Shown here in pieces: positions 19,543 through 37,441 of a DNA stretch of 64,000 nt. The notes beneath the pieces were generated by a model that saw only the letters and a list, made by a program, of their open reading frames with translations, was not told the origin of the DNA and did not search any database. Position 1 is the stretch's first letter; every line of letters begins with the position of its first letter. Source of the stretch: Bacteroidales bacterium (GTDB lineage Bacteria > Bacteroidota > Bacteroidia > Bacteroidales > Muribaculaceae); contig JAAVFQ010000016.1 in NCBI GenBank assembly GCA_014800685.1, positions 1 through 64,000 of the forward strand, written 5' to 3'. Position numbers and translations under genes: made by a program.

Positions 19543-19573
19543 TTTGGATTTTTAAAAATTATGTTGTAACTTT
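19543..19573 (+). promoter_or_regulatory. Canonical Bacteroidetes promoter upstream of candidate ncRNA/terminase leader
   Basis: TTTG (19543-19546), 19-nt spacer, TAACTTTG (19566-19573). Confidence 0.75.
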
Positions 19574-19579
19574 GCACAC

Positions 19580-19870
19580 AGATATGAGAACTAACGCCTC
19601 GTATCAGCTCGTAAGAGCATTAAATCAATTTGACTTTCAATTCCGGATAAATACGTGAGTACGTCATTCCGGATTGGGCTTCAATGCCCACTCATGGTAA
19701 ATGTTTGGTTGAATAATGGTACATCCATCTCTTTCCTGTTCTCCAAGGAAAGAGCAGTGTTGAAAAGAAAGCGAAAATATTTCTATCTTCCGCTTTGCTC
19801 TTGAAGAGCATCTTCTTTTCAGCAAAATTAAGCCGGTGATTTTTTCGAGAGAAAAAGACACCGGTTTGTT
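19580..19870 (+). ncRNA. Candidate structured ncRNA or long 5' leader ending in an intrinsic terminator
   Basis: No good ORF; promoter upstream; hairpins GCTC-gtaa-GAGC, TCCGGA..TCCGGA, GGGCttcaatGCCC, CTCTTTCCT-gttctcca-AGGAAAGAG, AAAGCG..CGCTTT inside GTTGAAAAGAA..TTCTTTTCAGC; terminal AAGCCGGTG..CACCGGTTT then T-rich. Confidence 0.6.
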
Positions 19871-19964
19871 TTATCCCCTCTCTTCACCCCTTTTTCCTAT
19901 TTACTCAAGTTTCGCAAGTTATACCTGCGAATGTAAAATTATTTATAATCCTAATTCTAATAAG

Positions 19965-21407
19965 ATGACCGAAAATTTCAAAAATGACTTTCTCGGCTGG
20001 GCCGAGAAATGCGTCAGAATCACTGACAAACTTACCGGACAGACAGTCCCCTTCTGTCCTAATGCCCCACAGCGACGCGTTCTCGCCATAATGGAAGAGC
20101 AGCGCCACGCCGGCAAGCCCATTCGCATAATTCTCCTGAAGGCAAGGCAATGGGGTGGCTCCACGCTCGTCCAGGTTTATATGGCTTGGTTGCAGCTCGT
20201 ATGCCATAAAGGCTGGAACTCTGTGGTCTGTGCCCACGTCAAAGATGCCGCCGCAGGCATCAGAGGTATGTATTCCCGCCTCCTCAGGGAATATCCTGAA
20301 GCCCTTCGCACCGGAAAGGGGAAAGACTGGGTCCTGTCGCCATACGAAAAGAGCGCCTCGGTAGTAGAAATTGCGGCCCGCGACTGCAGAATCACGCTTG
20401 CCACTGCAGGCGCTCCTAATTCCGTAAGAGGCTCTAATTTCGCTATGGCTCATCTCTCGGAGGTAGCCTTCTGGGGAGATGGCGATAGCAACGCTGCCGA
20501 AGAGATAGTAAGGACTATATGCGGCTCTGTGCCCAGAGTGGCGGATTCTCTCATCGTAATGGAGTCTACGGCCAACGGGCGCGGTGGTTATTTCTATGAC
20601 GAATGGCAGAGAGCCGCCGCAGGAAAGAGCGACAAGACTCCCGTGTTCGTGCCTTGGCATGAAATAGAAATCTACAGGCGCGATGTGGCCGATGATGAGA
20701 GGCAAGACATCCTCGCCTCCCTTGACGACTATGAGAAGTCGCTCATTGAGGAGGGTGTGGCCCTCGAAAGCGTGGCTTGGTATCATGATAAGCGCAGGGA
20801 ATATCCCACTCATGAGGCCATGATGGCCGAATTTCCCTCCACAGCCGAAGAGGCATTTTCTGCGAGCGGACTCTTTGACGCCTTTTCCGAAGAGGAATTA
20901 CCCCTCATGACAGACACTCTGCCGGCACCCTCACGTCAATCTCACTACATCCTCTCGATAATAGTGAGCCCTGACATCGCTTCAAGAGCTATTTCCGCTC
21001 TGCGTCTGGATGGGGAGCGCCTCACTGCAATAGCAGAAATTGACTCCACCGGAACTTTCCCGGTGGTAGCTGCCAGATGTTTGCGATGGTGTCAGAAGTA
21101 TGATGCCTCTGTGATCATTGGTGTCGCCGAGGCTTCGCGTGGAGCAGCAGGCCACGCTAAATGGCTGATTGAAAAGCTTGAAGAGGAGGGCGTGGAAGTC
21201 TATCACAATGAGGAGGATGAGGCTCTCGTAGTCCTTGATGAGACGGAAGTGTGCATTCTCGTAGATAGGCACCGCGAACTTGTAGCCGACTCCCGCATCT
21301 TAGAAATGCAACCCGAAATGCCTGAGCAGTATAGAGCCTTCCGCACAGACTCTCCCGCAGCCTCTCCGGGAGTGTGTGCGAGGCTTCTTGCTTTAAAAAC
21401 GATGTAG
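19965..21407 (+). CDS. Phage-type terminase large subunit (TerL-like)
   Basis: ATPase motifs IRIILLKARQWGGSTLVQVYMAW and NFAMAHLSEVAFW, VMESTANGRGGYFYDEW; start taken at MTENFKNDF. Confidence 0.82.
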   Translation: MTENFKNDFLGWAEKCVRITDKLTGQTVPFCPNAPQRRVLAIMEEQRHAGKPIRIILLKARQWGGSTLVQVYMAWLQLVCHKGWNSVVCAHVKDAAAGIRGMYSRLLREYPEALRTGKGKDWVLSPYEKSASVVEIAARDCRITLATAGAPNSVRGSNFAMAHLSEVAFWGDGDSNAAEEIVRTICGSVPRVADSLIVMESTANGRGGYFYDEWQRAAAGKSDKTPVFVPWHEIEIYRRDVADDERQDILASLDDYEKSLIEEGVALESVAWYHDKRREYPTHEAMMAEFPSTAEEAFSASGLFDAFSEEELPLMTDTLPAPSRQSHYILSIIVSPDIASRAISALRLDGERLTAIAEIDSTGTFPVVAARCLRWCQKYDASVIIGVAEASRGAAGHAKWLIEKLEEEGVEVYHNEEDEALVVLDETEVCILVDRHRELVADSRILEMQPEMPEQYRAFRTDSPAASPGVCARLLALKTM

Positions 21408-25571: not shown

Positions 25572-25982
25572 TTAAACCCCGAGCATCCCCTCTACGATAC
25601 CCGCCAGTCGGTCAGATGCCATTTCTTCAAGGAGCTGCTCTGTGCCCGCAAATGACTCTCTGGAGAGCAATGCTGCCAGACGTAGTTCCAGGATTGCAGT
25701 GATGGCTGACGTGATGTCTGAGGCTCGGCGCTCGCTTATACTTTCCGGAAAGGTCACTGCCAGCTCCGTGCTCTCATCGTCAGGGATGCTCATGCCAATC
25801 CAAGCCTCAAGCGACATGGCTACCTCGCCGATTATGTCGCTCAAAAAGCCCCGGAGAAGTGAGAGGCGCGATGAGTCTACAGGCGGAAGAGGCCTGCCCT
25901 CCCCGCCCAGATAATGGCTCATTGATATCAGGCGCCCTCCGCAGTTGTCAAGAAGGGCATTAAGATCTATGCTTTTGTCCAT
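25572..25982 (-). CDS. Hypothetical protein (136 aa), possibly phage head-completion/adaptor-like
   Basis: Intact ORF MDKSIDLNALLDNCGGRLISMSHYLGGEG...; phage link is only a weak impression. Confidence 0.55.
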   Translation of the reverse strand: MDKSIDLNALLDNCGGRLISMSHYLGGEGRPLPPVDSSRLSLLRGFLSDIIGEVAMSLEAWIGMSIPDDESTELAVTFPESISERRASDITSAITAILELRLAALLSRESFAGTEQLLEEMASDRLAGIVEGMLGV

Positions 25983-25995
25983 AAATGTATTAAGA

Positions 25996-26027
25996 TTTGT
26001 ATGAATGAAAATTAATCTGTATCTTTG
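25996..26027 (+). promoter_or_regulatory. Canonical promoter for C1 peptidase gene
   Basis: TTTG (25996-25999), 20-nt spacer, TATCTTTG (26020-26027). Confidence 0.7.
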
Positions 26028-26063
26028 CAATAAATTTAAAAAGAACCTACTTTAAATATTATC

Positions 26064-30382: not shown

Positions 30383-30841
30383 TCAGGGAATGGTGTAGAC
30401 GCGCTGATATGCGTAGGTCACTATACGCCCGGAGCCTGTCTGCCAGCGGAAGTAAAGCACGTTGCCGCTAAACCAGTAGTCCATCGTCACCGGTGAGCTA
30501 TATTCATACTGGATATTGATCTGATAGCTGCTGTATCCCATGTAGGGAGCCTCACACCAGTAGCCTAAACGTTCGGAATAGAGGCGTCCATTATTCCAAT
30601 AGGTGTAATAGCCACGTCCATAGCCGTCAAATTCCATCCAGTTGGTGGAGTTATAGTCCACGGGCATCCCATCGGCAGATATCAGTTCCCATCTTCCGGT
30701 CAGGGTTGAGTCATAGAATGTATCATCCCACCCTATCGGAGGAGGGCCGGGAGTCCAGATGGTATCGCCGCAGGAGGTCATCAGCAGGGCCGGTAAGAAT
30801 AGCATCACCGTTACCAGCATTTTCTTCAGGAATCTTTTCAT
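30383..30841 (-). CDS. Putative lipoprotein (lipocalin-like fold possible)
   Basis: MKRFLKKMLVTVMLFLPALLMTSCGD lipobox; GRWELISADG start of a lipocalin-like domain. Confidence 0.75.
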   Translation of the reverse strand: MKRFLKKMLVTVMLFLPALLMTSCGDTIWTPGPPPIGWDDTFYDSTLTGRWELISADGMPVDYNSTNWMEFDGYGRGYYTYWNNGRLYSERLGYWCEAPYMGYSSYQINIQYEYSSPVTMDYWFSGNVLYFRWQTGSGRIVTYAYQRVYTIP

Positions 30842-30904: not shown

Positions 30905-33439
30905 TCAAATTGTTCCCAGCAGATTCACTTTTCCCAGATGTCTCAGCGCCCCGCTTAGCGATACGCGCATGGTCACGGCGTCGTGGGGGGAGAGACTCGG
31001 GCTAACGCTCCGGAAGGGGAGCTCGGCCACGCCATGCACTACGTTGCCTATCGTGGCCTCCGAGAGTATGATGTCGCTGTCATTATTGTCGGCATCGTCG
31101 GCAGCATACATATCACGGGCGCTGACCACGAGGCGAACTCTCCCCTCCCGACCTGCCGACAGTTCGGCTCTCACCATGCAATACCCCTGACCGCTCTGAT
31201 GCAGAGGGTTTGTGCGCCACACGCAGTCACAACGTTTGCCCGATGCCCCTTCGGGGAAGTAAAGATGATAGGAGGCCCCTTTCTGTCCGCATATCAGAGG
31301 ATAGCGCCCGCGATAGAGGATGTCTTCTATGACGGCTGAGCGCATGGAGCCCGCTATGGAGTTTTCGCCTGCCTGCCAGATGTCAAGTGCCAGAGACTTG
31401 CCGGTGCGCTCTTTCGGGAGAAGCCAGAGCTCCATAGAGGATTCAAGCCATAGCAGACGGTCATATTCCGTGACTCCTGTCATCAGAGTGCGCGTGCGGG
31501 CGTCTGAGAATTGCACGAGCTGGCCATCGGCAAGGGCATAGACTGACCGCTGTCCGAATGTGACGGCTTCGGCATCATGCACTTTCAGGGCTGAGATGGC
31601 GCGCAGATTCTTATAGTAGCCTCTGAAGTCATGCATGAGCGCAGAGACACCGTTGTCTGTGAAGCAATAGACTATGCTGCGCGTGTGGGAGCCACTGACG
31701 TCGGGCTGTGCAGCGATGACGCTTATCACTCCTCCCAGAGAGTCGGAGGAGTCGGCGATGGCCAAGGGGTTGGCCCTGACGCTCGTCACTATCCGCTCCG
31801 GCTTCCACTCCTTTATTTCCGTTTCGCCGCGCGGATGGCTCTCTCCGGCCACTGCGAGGGTGTCGAGGGGTATGGGGTGGCCGTAGGGAGATGCATAGAA
31901 GGCTGAGTTTTCTGTGGTCGATTTGGTGAGAGGAAGTGTGAGGGTGTAAGGGATTCCGGAGCGTGTGAAGGTGATGATAATCTGCTCAGCCCGGCTGTCG
32001 GGATAGCTGAGCAAGGGAGCCAAATCCATGCTTGGGAGCAAGAGGTCGCGCGTGAGGGTGCGGAGACGTCCGTCCAGCCTGATAGTGACGCTGACTGTGG
32101 CCTGGAGGCTTCCGGCGCGTGCATTCTGAGCGGCATCGGGCACTGGGATGTCCGGGAGTGGTTGGGAGATATTGCCGAGGTGAAGAAAGCCGCCGTGCGT
32201 GGCGATGACGGAGGCGAATCCGGGCATTAGGGAGGTCACCTCTGTGGAGTCATTTCGGGTGCGCAGGCGTCTGCGTGGGATTCGGATGGCCTCCGAATCA
32301 TCGGAGGGTGTGATGAGAGCGGCGCGAAAGGTCTCGGCTTCGGCAAGCTGACTAACCAAGGAGGCCTCATCATTACGCTCCAGACGCACGGCGAGTGTAT
32401 CCCCGTCGGAGGTCTGGCGATAGAAGGCTTCGACCCCCTCGTCGGCCACCGGCTCGAATGGTTCGCTCACACGCACTTCGATATGGCGGATAAGGCTCCC
32501 CCATTTGGCGAAAAAGTCGCTCTCTTCGCTCTTCATGCCTACCCGGATAGAGAATGTAGGCAGCGAAAGGGTGGCAGTTCCCGTTTCGGTGAATCCCTCC
32601 TTAGTTCGCTCAAGAAAGAATGTGGCATCGGCGTTATCAGAGGAGACGGCCGGAGGAAGAATAATCTGCGGGGCCGAGAGATGCACAAGGCTTCCGTCCC
32701 ATAGTCTCACCCCTATTCTCACGGCTATGGGAGAGGTCCAGAGGCCGGCGGAGCGAGCAGTAGCAGAGGCTCTCTTATATGCATTGCGCACGGATTCTCC
32801 AAGGAGCGCCGTGAGACGCTTGCTCACGCCGGGACGGAAGTCACTGACTGCCGGAGATATTTCCACAGAGCTGCAGGTGGCCTTGACGGAGGGCTGGTCC
32901 ACACGCTCTACGCTCAGGCGGGGAAAGGCCGGTAGTGGCCCCAGATAACAGTATTGCCCGGTCTGTCGATCGAAGCGCAGATATTCGAGCGAATCGTCTT
33001 CCATGCGCATGACGGTAAAGGCGCCTACACGCTGAGTCTCCACTACTTGCTTGGAGAGGGTGGCTATAGTGATGTTTTTTTCAACGACAGATTGAGTGGA
33101 GCTTATAGCGTATGAGTGAATAAGTCTTCCGGAGCTACTTTGGGTCAGGACATTTACAAAACGGTCGCGCTCTTCAGCACCTACCGGACGATATGGCGAG
33201 CCGGAGAGTATGAGAGGCTGAGATACCGGAATGAGACGTTCGTTATAGAATCTCATATTCTCAACGTAGGCCACGAGGCCGAGCGATTCGGGCACGGGCG
33301 AGCCAGTGGCGGGAGTTCGCAGTGAGACCGAGGGCTGACGGGTCTTTATCCCCATGAGAGTGGGCTGTATTTCTATAAGATTGCGGTGAGGAGTAGCTGA
33401 GGAGTCCCTCCCCTTCTGACAGTTGGATTTTAAGGACAT
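30905..33439 (-). CDS. Large putative virion-associated/tail-like protein (844 aa)
   Basis: 27 bp downstream of the portal-like gene in the same operon; repeated beta-rich segments (VYCFTDNGVSALMHDFRGYYKNLRAISALKVHDAEAVTFGQRSVYALADGQLVQF). Confidence 0.6.
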   Translation of the reverse strand: MSLKSNCQKGRDSSATPHRNLIEIQPTLMGIKTRQPSVSLRTPATGSPVPESLGLVAYVENMRFYNERLIPVSQPLILSGSPYRPVGAEERDRFVNVLTQSSSGRLIHSYAISSTQSVVEKNITIATLSKQVVETQRVGAFTVMRMEDDSLEYLRFDRQTGQYCYLGPLPAFPRLSVERVDQPSVKATCSSVEISPAVSDFRPGVSKRLTALLGESVRNAYKRASATARSAGLWTSPIAVRIGVRLWDGSLVHLSAPQIILPPAVSSDNADATFFLERTKEGFTETGTATLSLPTFSIRVGMKSEESDFFAKWGSLIRHIEVRVSEPFEPVADEGVEAFYRQTSDGDTLAVRLERNDEASLVSQLAEAETFRAALITPSDDSEAIRIPRRRLRTRNDSTEVTSLMPGFASVIATHGGFLHLGNISQPLPDIPVPDAAQNARAGSLQATVSVTIRLDGRLRTLTRDLLLPSMDLAPLLSYPDSRAEQIIITFTRSGIPYTLTLPLTKSTTENSAFYASPYGHPIPLDTLAVAGESHPRGETEIKEWKPERIVTSVRANPLAIADSSDSLGGVISVIAAQPDVSGSHTRSIVYCFTDNGVSALMHDFRGYYKNLRAISALKVHDAEAVTFGQRSVYALADGQLVQFSDARTRTLMTGVTEYDRLLWLESSMELWLLPKERTGKSLALDIWQAGENSIAGSMRSAVIEDILYRGRYPLICGQKGASYHLYFPEGASGKRCDCVWRTNPLHQSGQGYCMVRAELSAGREGRVRLVVSARDMYAADDADNNDSDIILSEATIGNVVHGVAELPFRSVSPSLSPHDAVTMRVSLSGALRHLGKVNLLGTI

Positions 33440-33466
33440 AGGATTAGGTTGGATGAGTTTATGGGT

Positions 33467-34852
33467 TTATAGGTTTTCATGGTCGGCCAGAAGTGCATTG
33501 CGGCGCGTGAGAAAATCTTCAAAGCTGCTAAGGAGGTCGAAAATGCTCACAGAGGCCTGTTCGAGTTCTCTATTCATCATCTCGGCTCCTTTGGCAGTAG
33601 AGGCGCTTCCGCGGCTTGAGGCGTTTGTGCCGGATATTTCATTGAAGAGTCTCATCTGGGTGTCAAGGAGCTGACCTGCTCCGGCGAGTGTTCCCCCCTG
33701 ATTGAGCTGATAGGGCATCACATTCTTGGATGTGCGGCGGAAGGGGAGGATTCCGCCCGGCTCTGCCCAAATCCGCCTTACATCCTCCCAGGTCATGCCT
33801 CGTGGGAGCTGGTCAGTGGGAAAGAGCACTACCCCTTTGGCCGAGGCGCGGAGCACTGAGTCGAGCAGCATCACGAGATTATTGACAGATTTCTGCTGGT
33901 CTATGACGTCTTCTACCAGGGAATGTACCTCTCCGTCCACCATAGGATAGAGTGAGAGAACGAAGGGGTGGGATCCGGCGGTCATTACGGCGAGCAGCGA
34001 GCCATCCGCAAGCAGCCAGCTACCTTTCCATCGCGGCACGTAGTCAAGGCGAAGAACAGGAGCCTCATCGCCGGCATTCTTTCTGCGGCGGCAGAGGCGT
34101 AGGAATCTGTTTTCGGCCTTTTCGCTCCAGTCCTCTTCGGTGTAGGATGCTGTTTTGGGGTCGTGAATACGCATGATGGTCACATATTCCTTTTTCCACA
34201 CTTCCACCACGCGAAGAGTGCCCGACGTGTCGGTCTGCATGAAGTCGATTTCCGCAGCGCAGCATGGTGTGGGAGCCGTGGCGAGAGGAGAGGCCGGCTG
34301 CGTAGAGATGGCGGCCAGGCGGGAGGCAAGGTTGCGGAAGCCGGATTTGCTCTCCGGGGCGAAGCGTCGCATAATCTCTGAGGGCTCCATATCGTGAAGC
34401 ATTCCGATAAGGTTGCAGTCGGAGGCATCGGGGGCTGAGAAGCGACCGAATATCAGGCGTGCGGGCGAGACGTTGATGTAGTCTGAGGAGTCTGCGGAGT
34501 CTGAGATTCGCTGCGCCGCGCATCCTGAGATAAGAAACTCTTCAAAGGAGCGGGCATCGCGGTTGTCGTCGCCCCCGGAAGAGGCACGGTCAAATCTCCA
34601 TCGCCCTACAATGCTTTTCACGAGCTGGCGGATGAGATTGTTGCATATCGGCACCCTTCCGGCATCGAGCCATGCGCTCTCTTCGGAGATGATACGTCCG
34701 TCGGAGAGGCGATGCACGTCGCCCCATTGTCTGCCGAATGTGAAATCACGACATCTGCGCCGTTTTCTTCTGAATTCGGCAAGGGCGGTCCATGCGTTGC
34801 GTGCCTCTTCGAGCAGCCGGCGTCCGGGATTGTTTTCAGTTGAGTTATTCAT
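33467..34852 (-). CDS. Phage portal protein-like
   Basis: FTFGRQWGD, ICNNLIRQLVKSIVGRWR, VEDVIDQQKSVNNLVMLLDSVLRASAKGVVLFPTDQLPRGM; position between MCP-like and tail-like genes. Confidence 0.75.
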   Translation of the reverse strand: MNNSTENNPGRRLLEEARNAWTALAEFRRKRRRCRDFTFGRQWGDVHRLSDGRIISEESAWLDAGRVPICNNLIRQLVKSIVGRWRFDRASSGGDDNRDARSFEEFLISGCAAQRISDSADSSDYINVSPARLIFGRFSAPDASDCNLIGMLHDMEPSEIMRRFAPESKSGFRNLASRLAAISTQPASPLATAPTPCCAAEIDFMQTDTSGTLRVVEVWKKEYVTIMRIHDPKTASYTEEDWSEKAENRFLRLCRRRKNAGDEAPVLRLDYVPRWKGSWLLADGSLLAVMTAGSHPFVLSLYPMVDGEVHSLVEDVIDQQKSVNNLVMLLDSVLRASAKGVVLFPTDQLPRGMTWEDVRRIWAEPGGILPFRRTSKNVMPYQLNQGGTLAGAGQLLDTQMRLFNEISGTNASSRGSASTAKGAEMMNRELEQASVSIFDLLSSFEDFLTRRNALLADHENL

Positions 34853-34870
34853 GGATTAGTGAGGTGTGTG

Positions 34871-35464
34871 TTAAGGACTAAATGGAGAGGAGCTTTCCAG
34901 AAGTGCGGGATCGAAGATGAAAGAGCCGTCGGCGGGTCTTACCACAGCGGAGAGTTCGGAGACTGAGGGAGTGGCCGTCTGTCCGGGAGTGGCGCGGAAC
35001 GCAGAGGTATAGTAGGAAGTGAGCTGAGGTTCTCTCTCCAGCCCATGAGCTTCAAGCTCTCCATCGGGACGGAGATAGGCTTTCGGCGCAAAAGGAGTGG
35101 ATGCGAAGGCTCTTATCTCTTCGCGGGCTGAGATGGAGTCGGTCAGAGGGGGAAATTCGCAGACCGTGTGACGCCAGTCGGCCATCTTGAGAGTCAGAGG
35201 GCGCACACAGCGCTCCGGCAGTGAAAGGCGTGCGGCGTTTCGGGTTATATATCTTGCTGTCACCTCCTCACTGATTTCCTCTCGCGGGAGGAAGCAGGGA
35301 GGGGCCTCGGCAAGCTGCCGGGAATACCAGGCTTCGGCCTCGGCGAGAGCAGTCTCGCTCAGCGAGGTGAAGTCCTGTATCCCCGACAGTCCCGGGGAGG
35401 GCGTGAATCCCTTTCTGCTCAGCCACATCGACACCATCTGTTCGGGAGTGTATCTTTGCAGCAT
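34871..35464 (-). CDS. Putative connector/adaptor-type protein in virion operon
   Basis: Intact 197-aa ORF between capsid-like and portal-like genes. Confidence 0.5.
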   Translation of the reverse strand: MLQRYTPEQMVSMWLSRKGFTPSPGLSGIQDFTSLSETALAEAEAWYSRQLAEAPPCFLPREEISEEVTARYITRNAARLSLPERCVRPLTLKMADWRHTVCEFPPLTDSISAREEIRAFASTPFAPKAYLRPDGELEAHGLEREPQLTSYYTSAFRATPGQTATPSVSELSAVVRPADGSFIFDPALLESSSPFSP

Positions 35465-35489
35465 GATTTAAATCATCAGAATTAGGGTT

Positions 35490-36692
35490 TTATCCTATGA
35501 CTCTCGTGTGAGCCTCCGGGTAGCGTAGGGTAAGACAGCTGGCTTCGGTGAGCACCATAGCCTCAGTGTTGCGCTGTCCGCTGCCGCGCAGGTCGAGGGT
35601 TTCGGCGTGGAAGGGGATGAAAATGTGTTTCTGGATATATTCGGGGTCTATGATAATGCCGTTAGAGGGCATTCCCATAGCGTCGAAGATGTCGCTGAAG
35701 ACCACATAAAGTCGCCCGAACTTTGATATAATCTCGGAGAAATCTATGCCCCACATAGTGACCTGATCGCGTGCTGTAATCACTCTTTGTGCGTCTATCT
35801 TGTTGAGGGCGGTGATGAGTTCGCTGCCGGCGAGAAGAATCTTTCGGCGCGACCCGCTGTTTTCGGTGAATGCCTCTCTGAGAAGGTCTACGAGGGCATT
35901 GCCATCGAGTTTGGCCACATTCACGCGCATCTCTTTTCCGGCCTGCTCCCAGATGCCCTGGGTAAGCATGACCTGCTCCCCTTTGAGAGGGTCATAGATT
36001 TTCATTTTATGACCGAAAAGAAACTGCTTCTCCATGCCGAGGCGCATATCATAGATGGCCGCCTCCTGCTGGTCGGTGAAATTCCAGCCTATCTCCTTAT
36101 GGCTCATGCGCATGATGACCGACTGCTCTATCTGCATTTTGAAGATCTGGCAGAAATTGGTGTTTTTCTTCGGCAGGACGGCAAACTGCGGAGTCTGCAC
36201 ATCAAGCTGGGTGGCGGCGCGTCCCATTCGGATAATCTGGGTGCCCACTTGAGGGAGTGAGGCCCCTGAGGCGTCGGAGAAGATGGTGAGGCCATCATCG
36301 GTCTTGGCGCCCACGTATCCCGTGTGGCGGGTGCCGTCATCATCTATCCATGTAAACGTCTCCGACACTTCGAGGATAGAGGGGTCTGACACCTTCAGGG
36401 TGGCCTGCGTGATGCCATCTTCTGTGGAGAGAGTCTTCGCCGAGACGGCGGAAGTGGTGTCTTCGCGGGTGTCTACCGAATAGTAGTCTACCTCCATAGC
36501 GTCGACATTGCGGACGTGACCGAGGCGTGAAATCTGATCGAGGGGGGTGGCCATAGGGCGGATTTTGACTATTTCGCTGTCTATGGCATGCTGCATGAGT
36601 CCGGGAGCACCCTTTTCGGCAAGCTCGGTGGTGAGGACTGCATTGGTAACGTGTGTGCCGCCGGCCTGTCCGGCTACAAAGTTCTTTTCCAT
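35490..36692 (-). CDS. Phage major capsid protein-like (HK97-fold, SU10/DUF5309-like suspected)
   Basis: MEKNFVAGQAGGTHVTNAVLTTELAEKGAPGLMQHAID..., GRRKILLAGSELITALNKI, FGRLYVVFSDIFDAMGMPSNGIIIDPEYIQKHIFIPF. Confidence 0.75.
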   Translation of the reverse strand: MEKNFVAGQAGGTHVTNAVLTTELAEKGAPGLMQHAIDSEIVKIRPMATPLDQISRLGHVRNVDAMEVDYYSVDTREDTTSAVSAKTLSTEDGITQATLKVSDPSILEVSETFTWIDDDGTRHTGYVGAKTDDGLTIFSDASGASLPQVGTQIIRMGRAATQLDVQTPQFAVLPKKNTNFCQIFKMQIEQSVIMRMSHKEIGWNFTDQQEAAIYDMRLGMEKQFLFGHKMKIYDPLKGEQVMLTQGIWEQAGKEMRVNVAKLDGNALVDLLREAFTENSGSRRKILLAGSELITALNKIDAQRVITARDQVTMWGIDFSEIISKFGRLYVVFSDIFDAMGMPSNGIIIDPEYIQKHIFIPFHAETLDLRGSGQRNTEAMVLTEASCLTLRYPEAHTRVIG

Positions 36693-36809
36693 CTGAAATA
36701 AGTTAATAAGTGGATACCCCTTTGATAGAGTGTATTTGAAAGAATAAGGGGATTAGGTTTGAAAATATTTGAAAATTGAAAAATTGCTGTGCTTGCTCTC
36801 GTGTGGATA

Positions 36810-37250
36810 TTATTCCCACACAGAGCGTCTGTGTGCTATCAGTGGCTTTTCTGCCGAGGGTGAGTGGGGAAATCCTCTCAGTCCTTCCCAGCGCTCTGCG
36901 ATGGCCTCATTGCGACCGCGCAGATAAGCCTCTTCGGGCGTTTCCGAGCGAGTGGGAGCCAACTCCTCTCCGGGGGTGGGAGCGGCAGGTTGTGTTTTCG
37001 CTGTGAGGGCGTGCATTTCGTTTCGGATTACGGCTGTGAATTCTTCGGTGATGATGGCGCGTAAGGAGGATAAAAATTTGTCGGTAAGCTGAGAAGTATC
37101 ATCGCTTTTATTCTCGGAAGAGGCTGGTTTTTCGATGGGTTCTGTCTGATTGGCATCGGGAGTCGGGCTGGAATTTTCAGCTTGCGGAGCTTCGGTCAGC
37201 TCCCTTTTCTGCTCGTTGTCGGAGGCAGATTCCGGTCTGGGATTTTTCAT
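36810..37250 (-). CDS. Scaffold-like acidic/proline-rich protein preceding capsid gene
   Basis: Low-complexity PEST-like N-terminus, short C-terminal helix EEAYLRGRNEAIAERWEGL; position immediately 5' of MCP. Confidence 0.5.
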   Translation of the reverse strand: MKNPRPESASDNEQKRELTEAPQAENSSPTPDANQTEPIEKPASSENKSDDTSQLTDKFLSSLRAIITEEFTAVIRNEMHALTAKTQPAAPTPGEELAPTRSETPEEAYLRGRNEAIAERWEGLRGFPHSPSAEKPLIAHRRSVWE

Positions 37251-37409
37251 TTGTGTGGAAAATTTTAGGATTAGTTTAATTTGCCTGCGTTTCGCAAGCT
37301 CGATTTAGAGTGAGGATGAGGGGACTGTGAGGCCTGCAGGACACCGGCATGAGAATGGATGGTTAGGATTAGGAGGGAATGGCCGGTGCATTCCGTTTTT
37401 TTGACAATG

Positions 37410-37441
37410 CAAAGTTACTGCTAAAATCTAAAAATAGCAAA
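37410..37441 (-). promoter_or_regulatory. Canonical housekeeping promoter of the virion-like operon
   Basis: On - strand: TTTG (37441-37438), 20-nt spacer, TAACTTTG (37417-37410). Confidence 0.7.

Follow-up and report, generated by a model that had tools for sequence, protein, structure and literature searches.

Gene transfer agents (GTAs) of Alphaproteobacteria are long-tailed and encoded by one main cluster. RcGTA and its relatives consist of domesticated, vertically inherited phage structural genes located among host genes (PMC9953437, PMC7947584). The GTA framework paper covers alphaproteobacterial and spirochaete agents, with no mention of Bacteroidota (PMC9953437). The closest described analogue of the system considered here is FpGTA I and II of Faecalibacterium, also a gut bacterium; these agents are of the short-tailed type, are encoded by distant split operons and are inherited in all examined genomes of the genus (PMC12946183). 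Here we analyze a window of 64,000 nucleotides from a Bacteroidales bacterium of the Muribaculaceae (GCA_014800685.1, contig JAAVFQ010000016.1, positions 1 to 64,000), which carries an operon of five particle genes and, apart from it, a gene for the packaging ATPase TerL. The operon and the separate TerL gene are likely to be a domesticated, co-inherited, phage-derived particle system in Bacteroidales, which appears to be of the GTA type, vertically inherited and related to phages such as BF1-TP2.

FpGTA differs from this system in belonging to another phylum, in carrying TerS and TerL in its main operon and lysis and fibre genes in the second, and in having been proven to form particles with ~9 kb of host DNA (PMC12946183). 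No description of a GTA in Bacteroidota was found in the open-access literature, preprints excluded, and a Bacteroidales-wide inherited particle system has apparently not been described before. Since Bacteroidales have, according to work cited in PMC12946183, gene-exchange rates among the highest in the gut, such a system bears on the movement of genes there.

The features of the window are listed below with the evidence for each.

37410..37441, minus strand: housekeeping-type promoter of the particle operon, TTTG-N20-TAACTTTG (pattern scan; the same type lies 5' of the first operon gene in five further carriers, G440, G034, G030, G439 and G478)
36810..37250, minus strand: putative scaffold, 146 aa (position and C-terminal motif RGRNE...RRSVWE, also found in relatives and phage BF1-TP2)
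35490..36692, minus strand: major capsid protein (MCP), HK97-type, SU10 family, 400 aa (Pfam SU10_MCP 3.1e-47; PHROG 26635 4.7e-75; alignment)
34871..35464, minus strand: predicted tail-barrel ring or head-tail adaptor, 197 aa (structure model with predicted local distance difference test score, pLDDT, of 88; fold match 7qoj_D)
33467..34852, minus strand: portal, P22 type, 461 aa (PHROG 156 2.4e-31; Pfam P22_portal 4.6e-17; alignment)
30905..33439, minus strand: predicted short-tail nozzle, 844 aa (model pLDDT 79; fold matches to podophage nozzles)
30383..30841, minus strand: lipoprotein, 152 aa, not a member of the system (follows the operon; generic gene of the genus)
19543..19574, plus strand: promoter of the same type upstream of TerL (pattern scan)
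19965..21407, plus strand: TerL packaging ATPase, 480 aa from the likely start (PHROG 2 1.2e-15; alignment; motif table; translation)

The five open reading frames (ORFs) of the operon follow the promoter at 37441-37410 (-) in the order 146, 400, 197, 461 and 844 aa. The promoter is of the Bacteroidota housekeeping type; the window contains nine occurrences of its pattern, compared with an expectation of 0.39 in shuffled sequence. The leader from the promoter to the first ATG measures 159 nt, and the intergenic gaps through the lipoprotein ORF are 117, 25, 18, 27 and 63 nt. An earlier sequence-only reading of the window had described this promoter, a leader of ~150 nt and the minus-strand gene order with gaps of about 18-120 bp, all of which agree with our results (18-117 nt for the five particle ORFs). 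It had also counted the lipoprotein gene as part of the operon; we rejected this gene, as relatives of it occur in 52 of 71 genomes in the genus and most of these 52 lack the capsid gene. Nor is the operon the stand-alone virion operon of that reading: it appears to be a component of a domesticated system whose genes are dispersed, with TerL 9.5 kb beyond it under its own housekeeping-type promoter and separated from it by tRNA genes and host genes. A terminase profile search of the window matched at 20028-20882 (+), within an ORF that spans 19836-21407 (+) and probably starts at 19965. The flanks of the operon are host genes as well (cytidine deaminase, FNR/GltD-like, GAPDH and tRNAs), and no integrase or replication gene was found in the flanks examined, to which the integrase search was confined. 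A further 152-aa ORF without a Pfam match lies between TerL and the operon (25572-26030, -).

Family matches and alignments assign the 400-aa protein to the major capsid proteins of the HK97 type, SU10 family, and identify the 461-aa protein as a P22-type portal. The portal is devoid of the C-terminal region of phage portals, a loss common to family f1, and the capsid of the window's clade lacks an N-terminal membrane segment. Its position and its C-terminal motif RGRNE...RRSVWD, which is common to the capsid-preceding genes of relatives and of phage BF1-TP2, make the 146-aa protein a plausible scaffold whose tail would bind the coat. The model of the 197-aa protein is closest in fold to tail-barrel rings of the crAss-like kind, with phicrAss001 7qoj_D as a weak best match (probability 0.99, E=7e-3, template modeling (TM) score 0.47). 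The model of the 844-aa protein matches the phage E1004 tail, P22 gp10, cyanophage A4 and the T7 nozzle (gp12); since these matches have low TM-scores (0.2-0.4) and beta-propellers of unrelated proteins match too, the nozzle assignment rests on fold and gene context. The sequence-only reading had named these products scaffold-, MCP-, connector-, portal- and tail-like, and these names are borne out, the putative scaffold by position and motif and the connector by fold. Its suggestion of a short-tailed or tailless particle is supported as regards a short tail in place of a long one: portal, ring/adaptor and nozzle are present and no tape measure or tube was found, as in short-tailed P22/T7/crAss-like phages. 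These phages share with the system the portal family, the nozzle fold (P22 gp10, T7 gp12) and the ring fold (phicrAss001); they differ from it in that identity in the fold matches is ~8-11% and the vicinity of the operon showed no ejection, needle or fibre gene. Genes for receptor binding or lysis were likewise not seen there.

In the genus of the window (g1), the MCP, ring, portal and nozzle genes are open in all 13 carriers at 30-80% protein identity, and the TerL ATPase region is present in each of them; the scaffold was recognized by profile in seven and by eye additionally in G004. Apparent stops in the MCP of G440 and G454 were discarded, as the match extended upstream of the start codon and the ORFs are intact. 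The ratio of non-synonymous to synonymous substitution rates (dN/dS), calculated for the closest pairs with synonymous sites partly to near saturated, is 0.06-0.27 for MCP, 0.14-0.25 for the portal, 0.13-0.21 for TerL, 0.26-0.35 for the ring and 0.33-0.43 for the nozzle. By these ratios, the genes of the system are under purifying selection.

Prevalence was determined in 392 Bacteroidales genomes, mostly metagenome-assembled and with inferred family labels, and is given per sampled genome because the sample was drawn evenly over genera. The capsid gene was found in 34 genomes, almost always in a single copy; 33 of these have TerL and 33 the portal, and either gene occurs without MCP in just 2-3 genomes (Fisher 2e-44, a value that ignores relatedness; the positives cover 16 genera). 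All nine genomes of family f103 (Barnesiella-like, 91-94% DNA identity to L035) carry it. One g1 carrier, G030, shares a contig with L022, which is labelled Muribaculaceae.

In near-complete assemblies of other families the genes of the system are dispersed, up to 430 kb apart: on the single contig of G291 the portal lies at 1.149 Mb, TerS at 1.294, the capsid at 1.395 and TerL at 1.427 Mb, and in G346 the same genes (0.499, 0.705, 0.837 and 0.931 Mb) are spread over 0.43 Mb. This dispersal of head genes is unlike the arrangement of alphaproteobacterial GTAs and, over hundreds of kilobases, would conceal the system from prophage finders. The scaffold gene adjoins fumarase in 20 fetched loci of families f28, f58, f65, f84 and f103, and aminopeptidase P in f22. 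In the trees of capsid, portal and TerL the clades largely agree (Mantel p=0.001 for both capsid/portal and portal/TerL). On the evidence of neighbors and trees, the distribution is that of an old, inherited, domesticated system. Two features of GTAs are found here, phage-derived head, portal and tail genes in a host chromosome, and vertical inheritance under purifying selection with no sign of own mobility (neighbors, trees and dN/dS; integrases in the flanks only). At the sequence level, none of the six parts (scaffold, capsid, ring, portal, nozzle and motor ATPase) is missing; they are intact and conserved, and are inherited together.

The nearest relatives outside the system are the Bacteroides phages BF1-TP2, BKO1-TP3 and BS-TP4 (PQ571263, PQ571269, PQ571277). 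They share with it a scaffold-capsid-(126 aa)-ring block and the portal and TerL families; they differ in being phages of 65-68 kb whose head genes are compact, which possess TerS, a complete TerL nuclease and a complete portal, encode a rhomboid-like protease and have a capsid with a membrane segment. Capsid identity is just 35-37%. A scan of viral contigs with MCP, which depends on exact peptide patterns, found no relative. Prophage-like compact copies are also present in the order, as on contig C32 of G162, where portal, TerL and capsid lie within 7 kb.

Several observations weigh against the reading of the operon and TerL as a domesticated system. The capsid gene is patchy in g1 (13 of 71 genomes), the capsid-TerL distance correlation within the genus is weak (Mantel p=0.057), and the chromosomal site by the FNR-like gene is common to the window and G454 only, which are close relatives, so that local synteny inside the genus is limited. 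The remaining points are the loss of TerS and of the TerL nuclease, and a split TerL frame in one carrier. TerL of other families and of phages keeps the nuclease motifs VDxGG(R)...D, ESN(T/S)xE and HDD; all three are lost in the 12 aligned g1 type-I TerL proteins (12/12), the nuclease half being deleted in six and degenerate in six, including that of the window. The window TerL retains the ATPase motifs (Walker A KARQWGGST, HLSEVAFW, MESTANG), as do all 12 (KARQWGGST, HLSEVA(F/Y)W, MESTA(N/D)G). Such a nuclease-less TerL is found in 13/13 capsid-positive g1 genomes vs 1/58 other g1 genomes, a co-occurrence that speaks for the domesticated system. The alphaproteobacterial GTA TerLs analyzed retain the nuclease residues (PMC7947584). 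A stop interrupts the TerL reading frame of G439. A relative of the phage TerS-like gene occurs in 10/10 sampled genomes of families f22, f28, f58, f65 and f103, and is absent from 12 of the 13 g1 carriers; the lone carrier with TerS, G436, has a second, complete cluster. Among six other f1 genomes only one has a TerS-like gene (Fisher 8e-7). In G309 of the same family (L187:8913-12504) scaffold, capsid, ring and portal are kept, and TerL and TerS were undetected. Weak TerL matches of ~330 aa were not counted, since they probably belong to a different P-loop ATPase, of RuvB size. Short separate ORFs that match the TerL nuclease half only were seen in G018 (C10:22721-23134) and G008 (C2:112039-112503); they are either a split nuclease or fragments of a second cluster type considered below.

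Initiation of DNA packaging and cutting normally require TerS and the nuclease (PMC7947584). With both lost, headful packaging of chromosomal DNA is not expected of the g1 particle, which is probably unable to cut such DNA. As the host-DNA-cutting terminase (TerS plus TerL nuclease), a defining feature of a GTA, is missing from the window and its genus, the window's copy is not classed as a GTA. The copies in f22, f28, f58, f65 and f103 retain such a terminase at the sequence level and qualify as candidate GTAs. The stepwise loss of TerS, the nuclease and finally TerL among related species is a natural experiment on what becomes of capsid genes after chromosomal packaging stops.

The g1 system may take in DNA cut beforehand, may have acquired another use or may be in decay. 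Expression would start from the housekeeping-type promoters, a scaffolded capsid bearing a single portal and a short nozzle would assemble, and the TerL ATPase would dock at the portal. If loaded, the particle might take up DNA with ready-made ends (cf. phi29-type motors) or other cargo; a separate nuclease or no cargo are further options. We tentatively propose, with considerable doubt, that in g1 a GTA ancestor became a housekeeping-expressed capsid device with portal, nozzle and translocating ATPase, free of terminase nuclease and TerS, which takes ready-cut DNA or non-DNA cargo. If true, this would be a bacterial use of phage capsids not described before.

A decaying remnant, in which an ancestral GTA that worked in other families is being lost in g1 and its genes are open by chance or recency, is possible, if less likely than not. 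The absence of TerS, the deleted or dead nuclease, the missing portal C-terminus, G309 without TerL and the retention of the capsid in only 13 of 71 species could all be explained in this way, as could a second cluster type with full TerL, which many genomes of the genus carry and which seldom coexists with that of the window. Four genes open in 13/13 carriers at 30-80% identity with near-saturated synonymous sites, ATPase motifs conserved in 12 aligned proteins, dN/dS well below one and retained promoters argue against decay.

It is somewhat improbable that the g1 capsid no longer carries DNA and has been repurposed, whether to enclose proteins, to serve as a delivery particle or to interfere with related phages. 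DNA recognition and cutting are lost while shell genes and the scaffold tag are retained, the scaffold, capsid, ring and portal genes of G309 persist in the absence of both TerL and TerS, the promoter is of the housekeeping type, and the related prophage-like copies in the order are possible targets; however, a plain compartment needs no portal, nozzle or conserved motor ATPase, and no cargo gene was identified. As with encapsulins, an HK97-type shell is encoded by a cell, and the gene beside it specifies a small protein whose C-terminal tag is conserved; the operon differs from them in that the shell matches the phage capsid family SU10, which was the only match in the Pfam scan (no encapsulin family was matched), and in the presence of portal, nozzle and motor. 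Capsids at L024-L063 were considered as capsid-only shells, and this idea was dropped because wider searches of sampled genomes of those families located portal, TerL and TerS elsewhere.

A working GTA, with the roles of TerS and the nuclease filled by unrelated or undetected host genes and host DNA still moved, is unlikely. Sister families do retain all packaging genes, the motor ATPase is conserved in g1 and split operons can yield GTA particles, as in FpGTA (PMC12946183), but the nuclease motifs are lost in every aligned g1 protein, a TerS relative is missing in 12 of 13 carriers and no lysis or fibre gene was found near the operon.

An ordinary prophage or satellite with overlooked genes is highly improbable although capsid and portal are clearly phage-derived and Bacteroides phages are the nearest outside relatives, since the genes, single-copy, are dispersed in relatives, which refutes it, and host genes flank the operon with no contiguous integration, replication, packaging and lysis set.

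The second cluster type spans 7 kb and consists of portal, full-length TerL, a TerS-like gene, scaffold, divergent capsid and ring. It sits among host genes, for example rimP-nusA-infB; g1 examples are L181:6923-14177, L182:8109-13831, L183:5426-13223 and L184:6391-13266. Counted by full-length TerL, it is present in 48 of the 71 genomes of the genus and is largely exclusive of the window's type.

In most other families, as in phage BF1-TP2, the capsid protein starts with a hydrophobic membrane-type segment of ~20 residues, unusual for the HK97 type (L024-L037, L040, L042, L043, L046-L047, L050, L052-L053, L055-L057, L059, L061-L063, L064). A gene for a small rhomboid-like protease (HxxxxHxxxN, GASA/GLSG and a late His) adjoins the TerL and capsid block of phages L064 (18031-18498, -) and L065 (9954-10472, -), and a possible substrate of this protease is the membrane segment at the start of the capsid protein. 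The GenBank 'tail spike protein' at L064:15987-18014 (-), L065:7847-9961 (-) and L066:7868-9964 (-) is, by profile and motifs, a large terminase. In one family (L047:2025-9658, L052:11778-19758) the cluster extends into a tail-fibre-like protein of ~1160 aa and a holin-like gene, and may therefore encode receptor binding and lysis.

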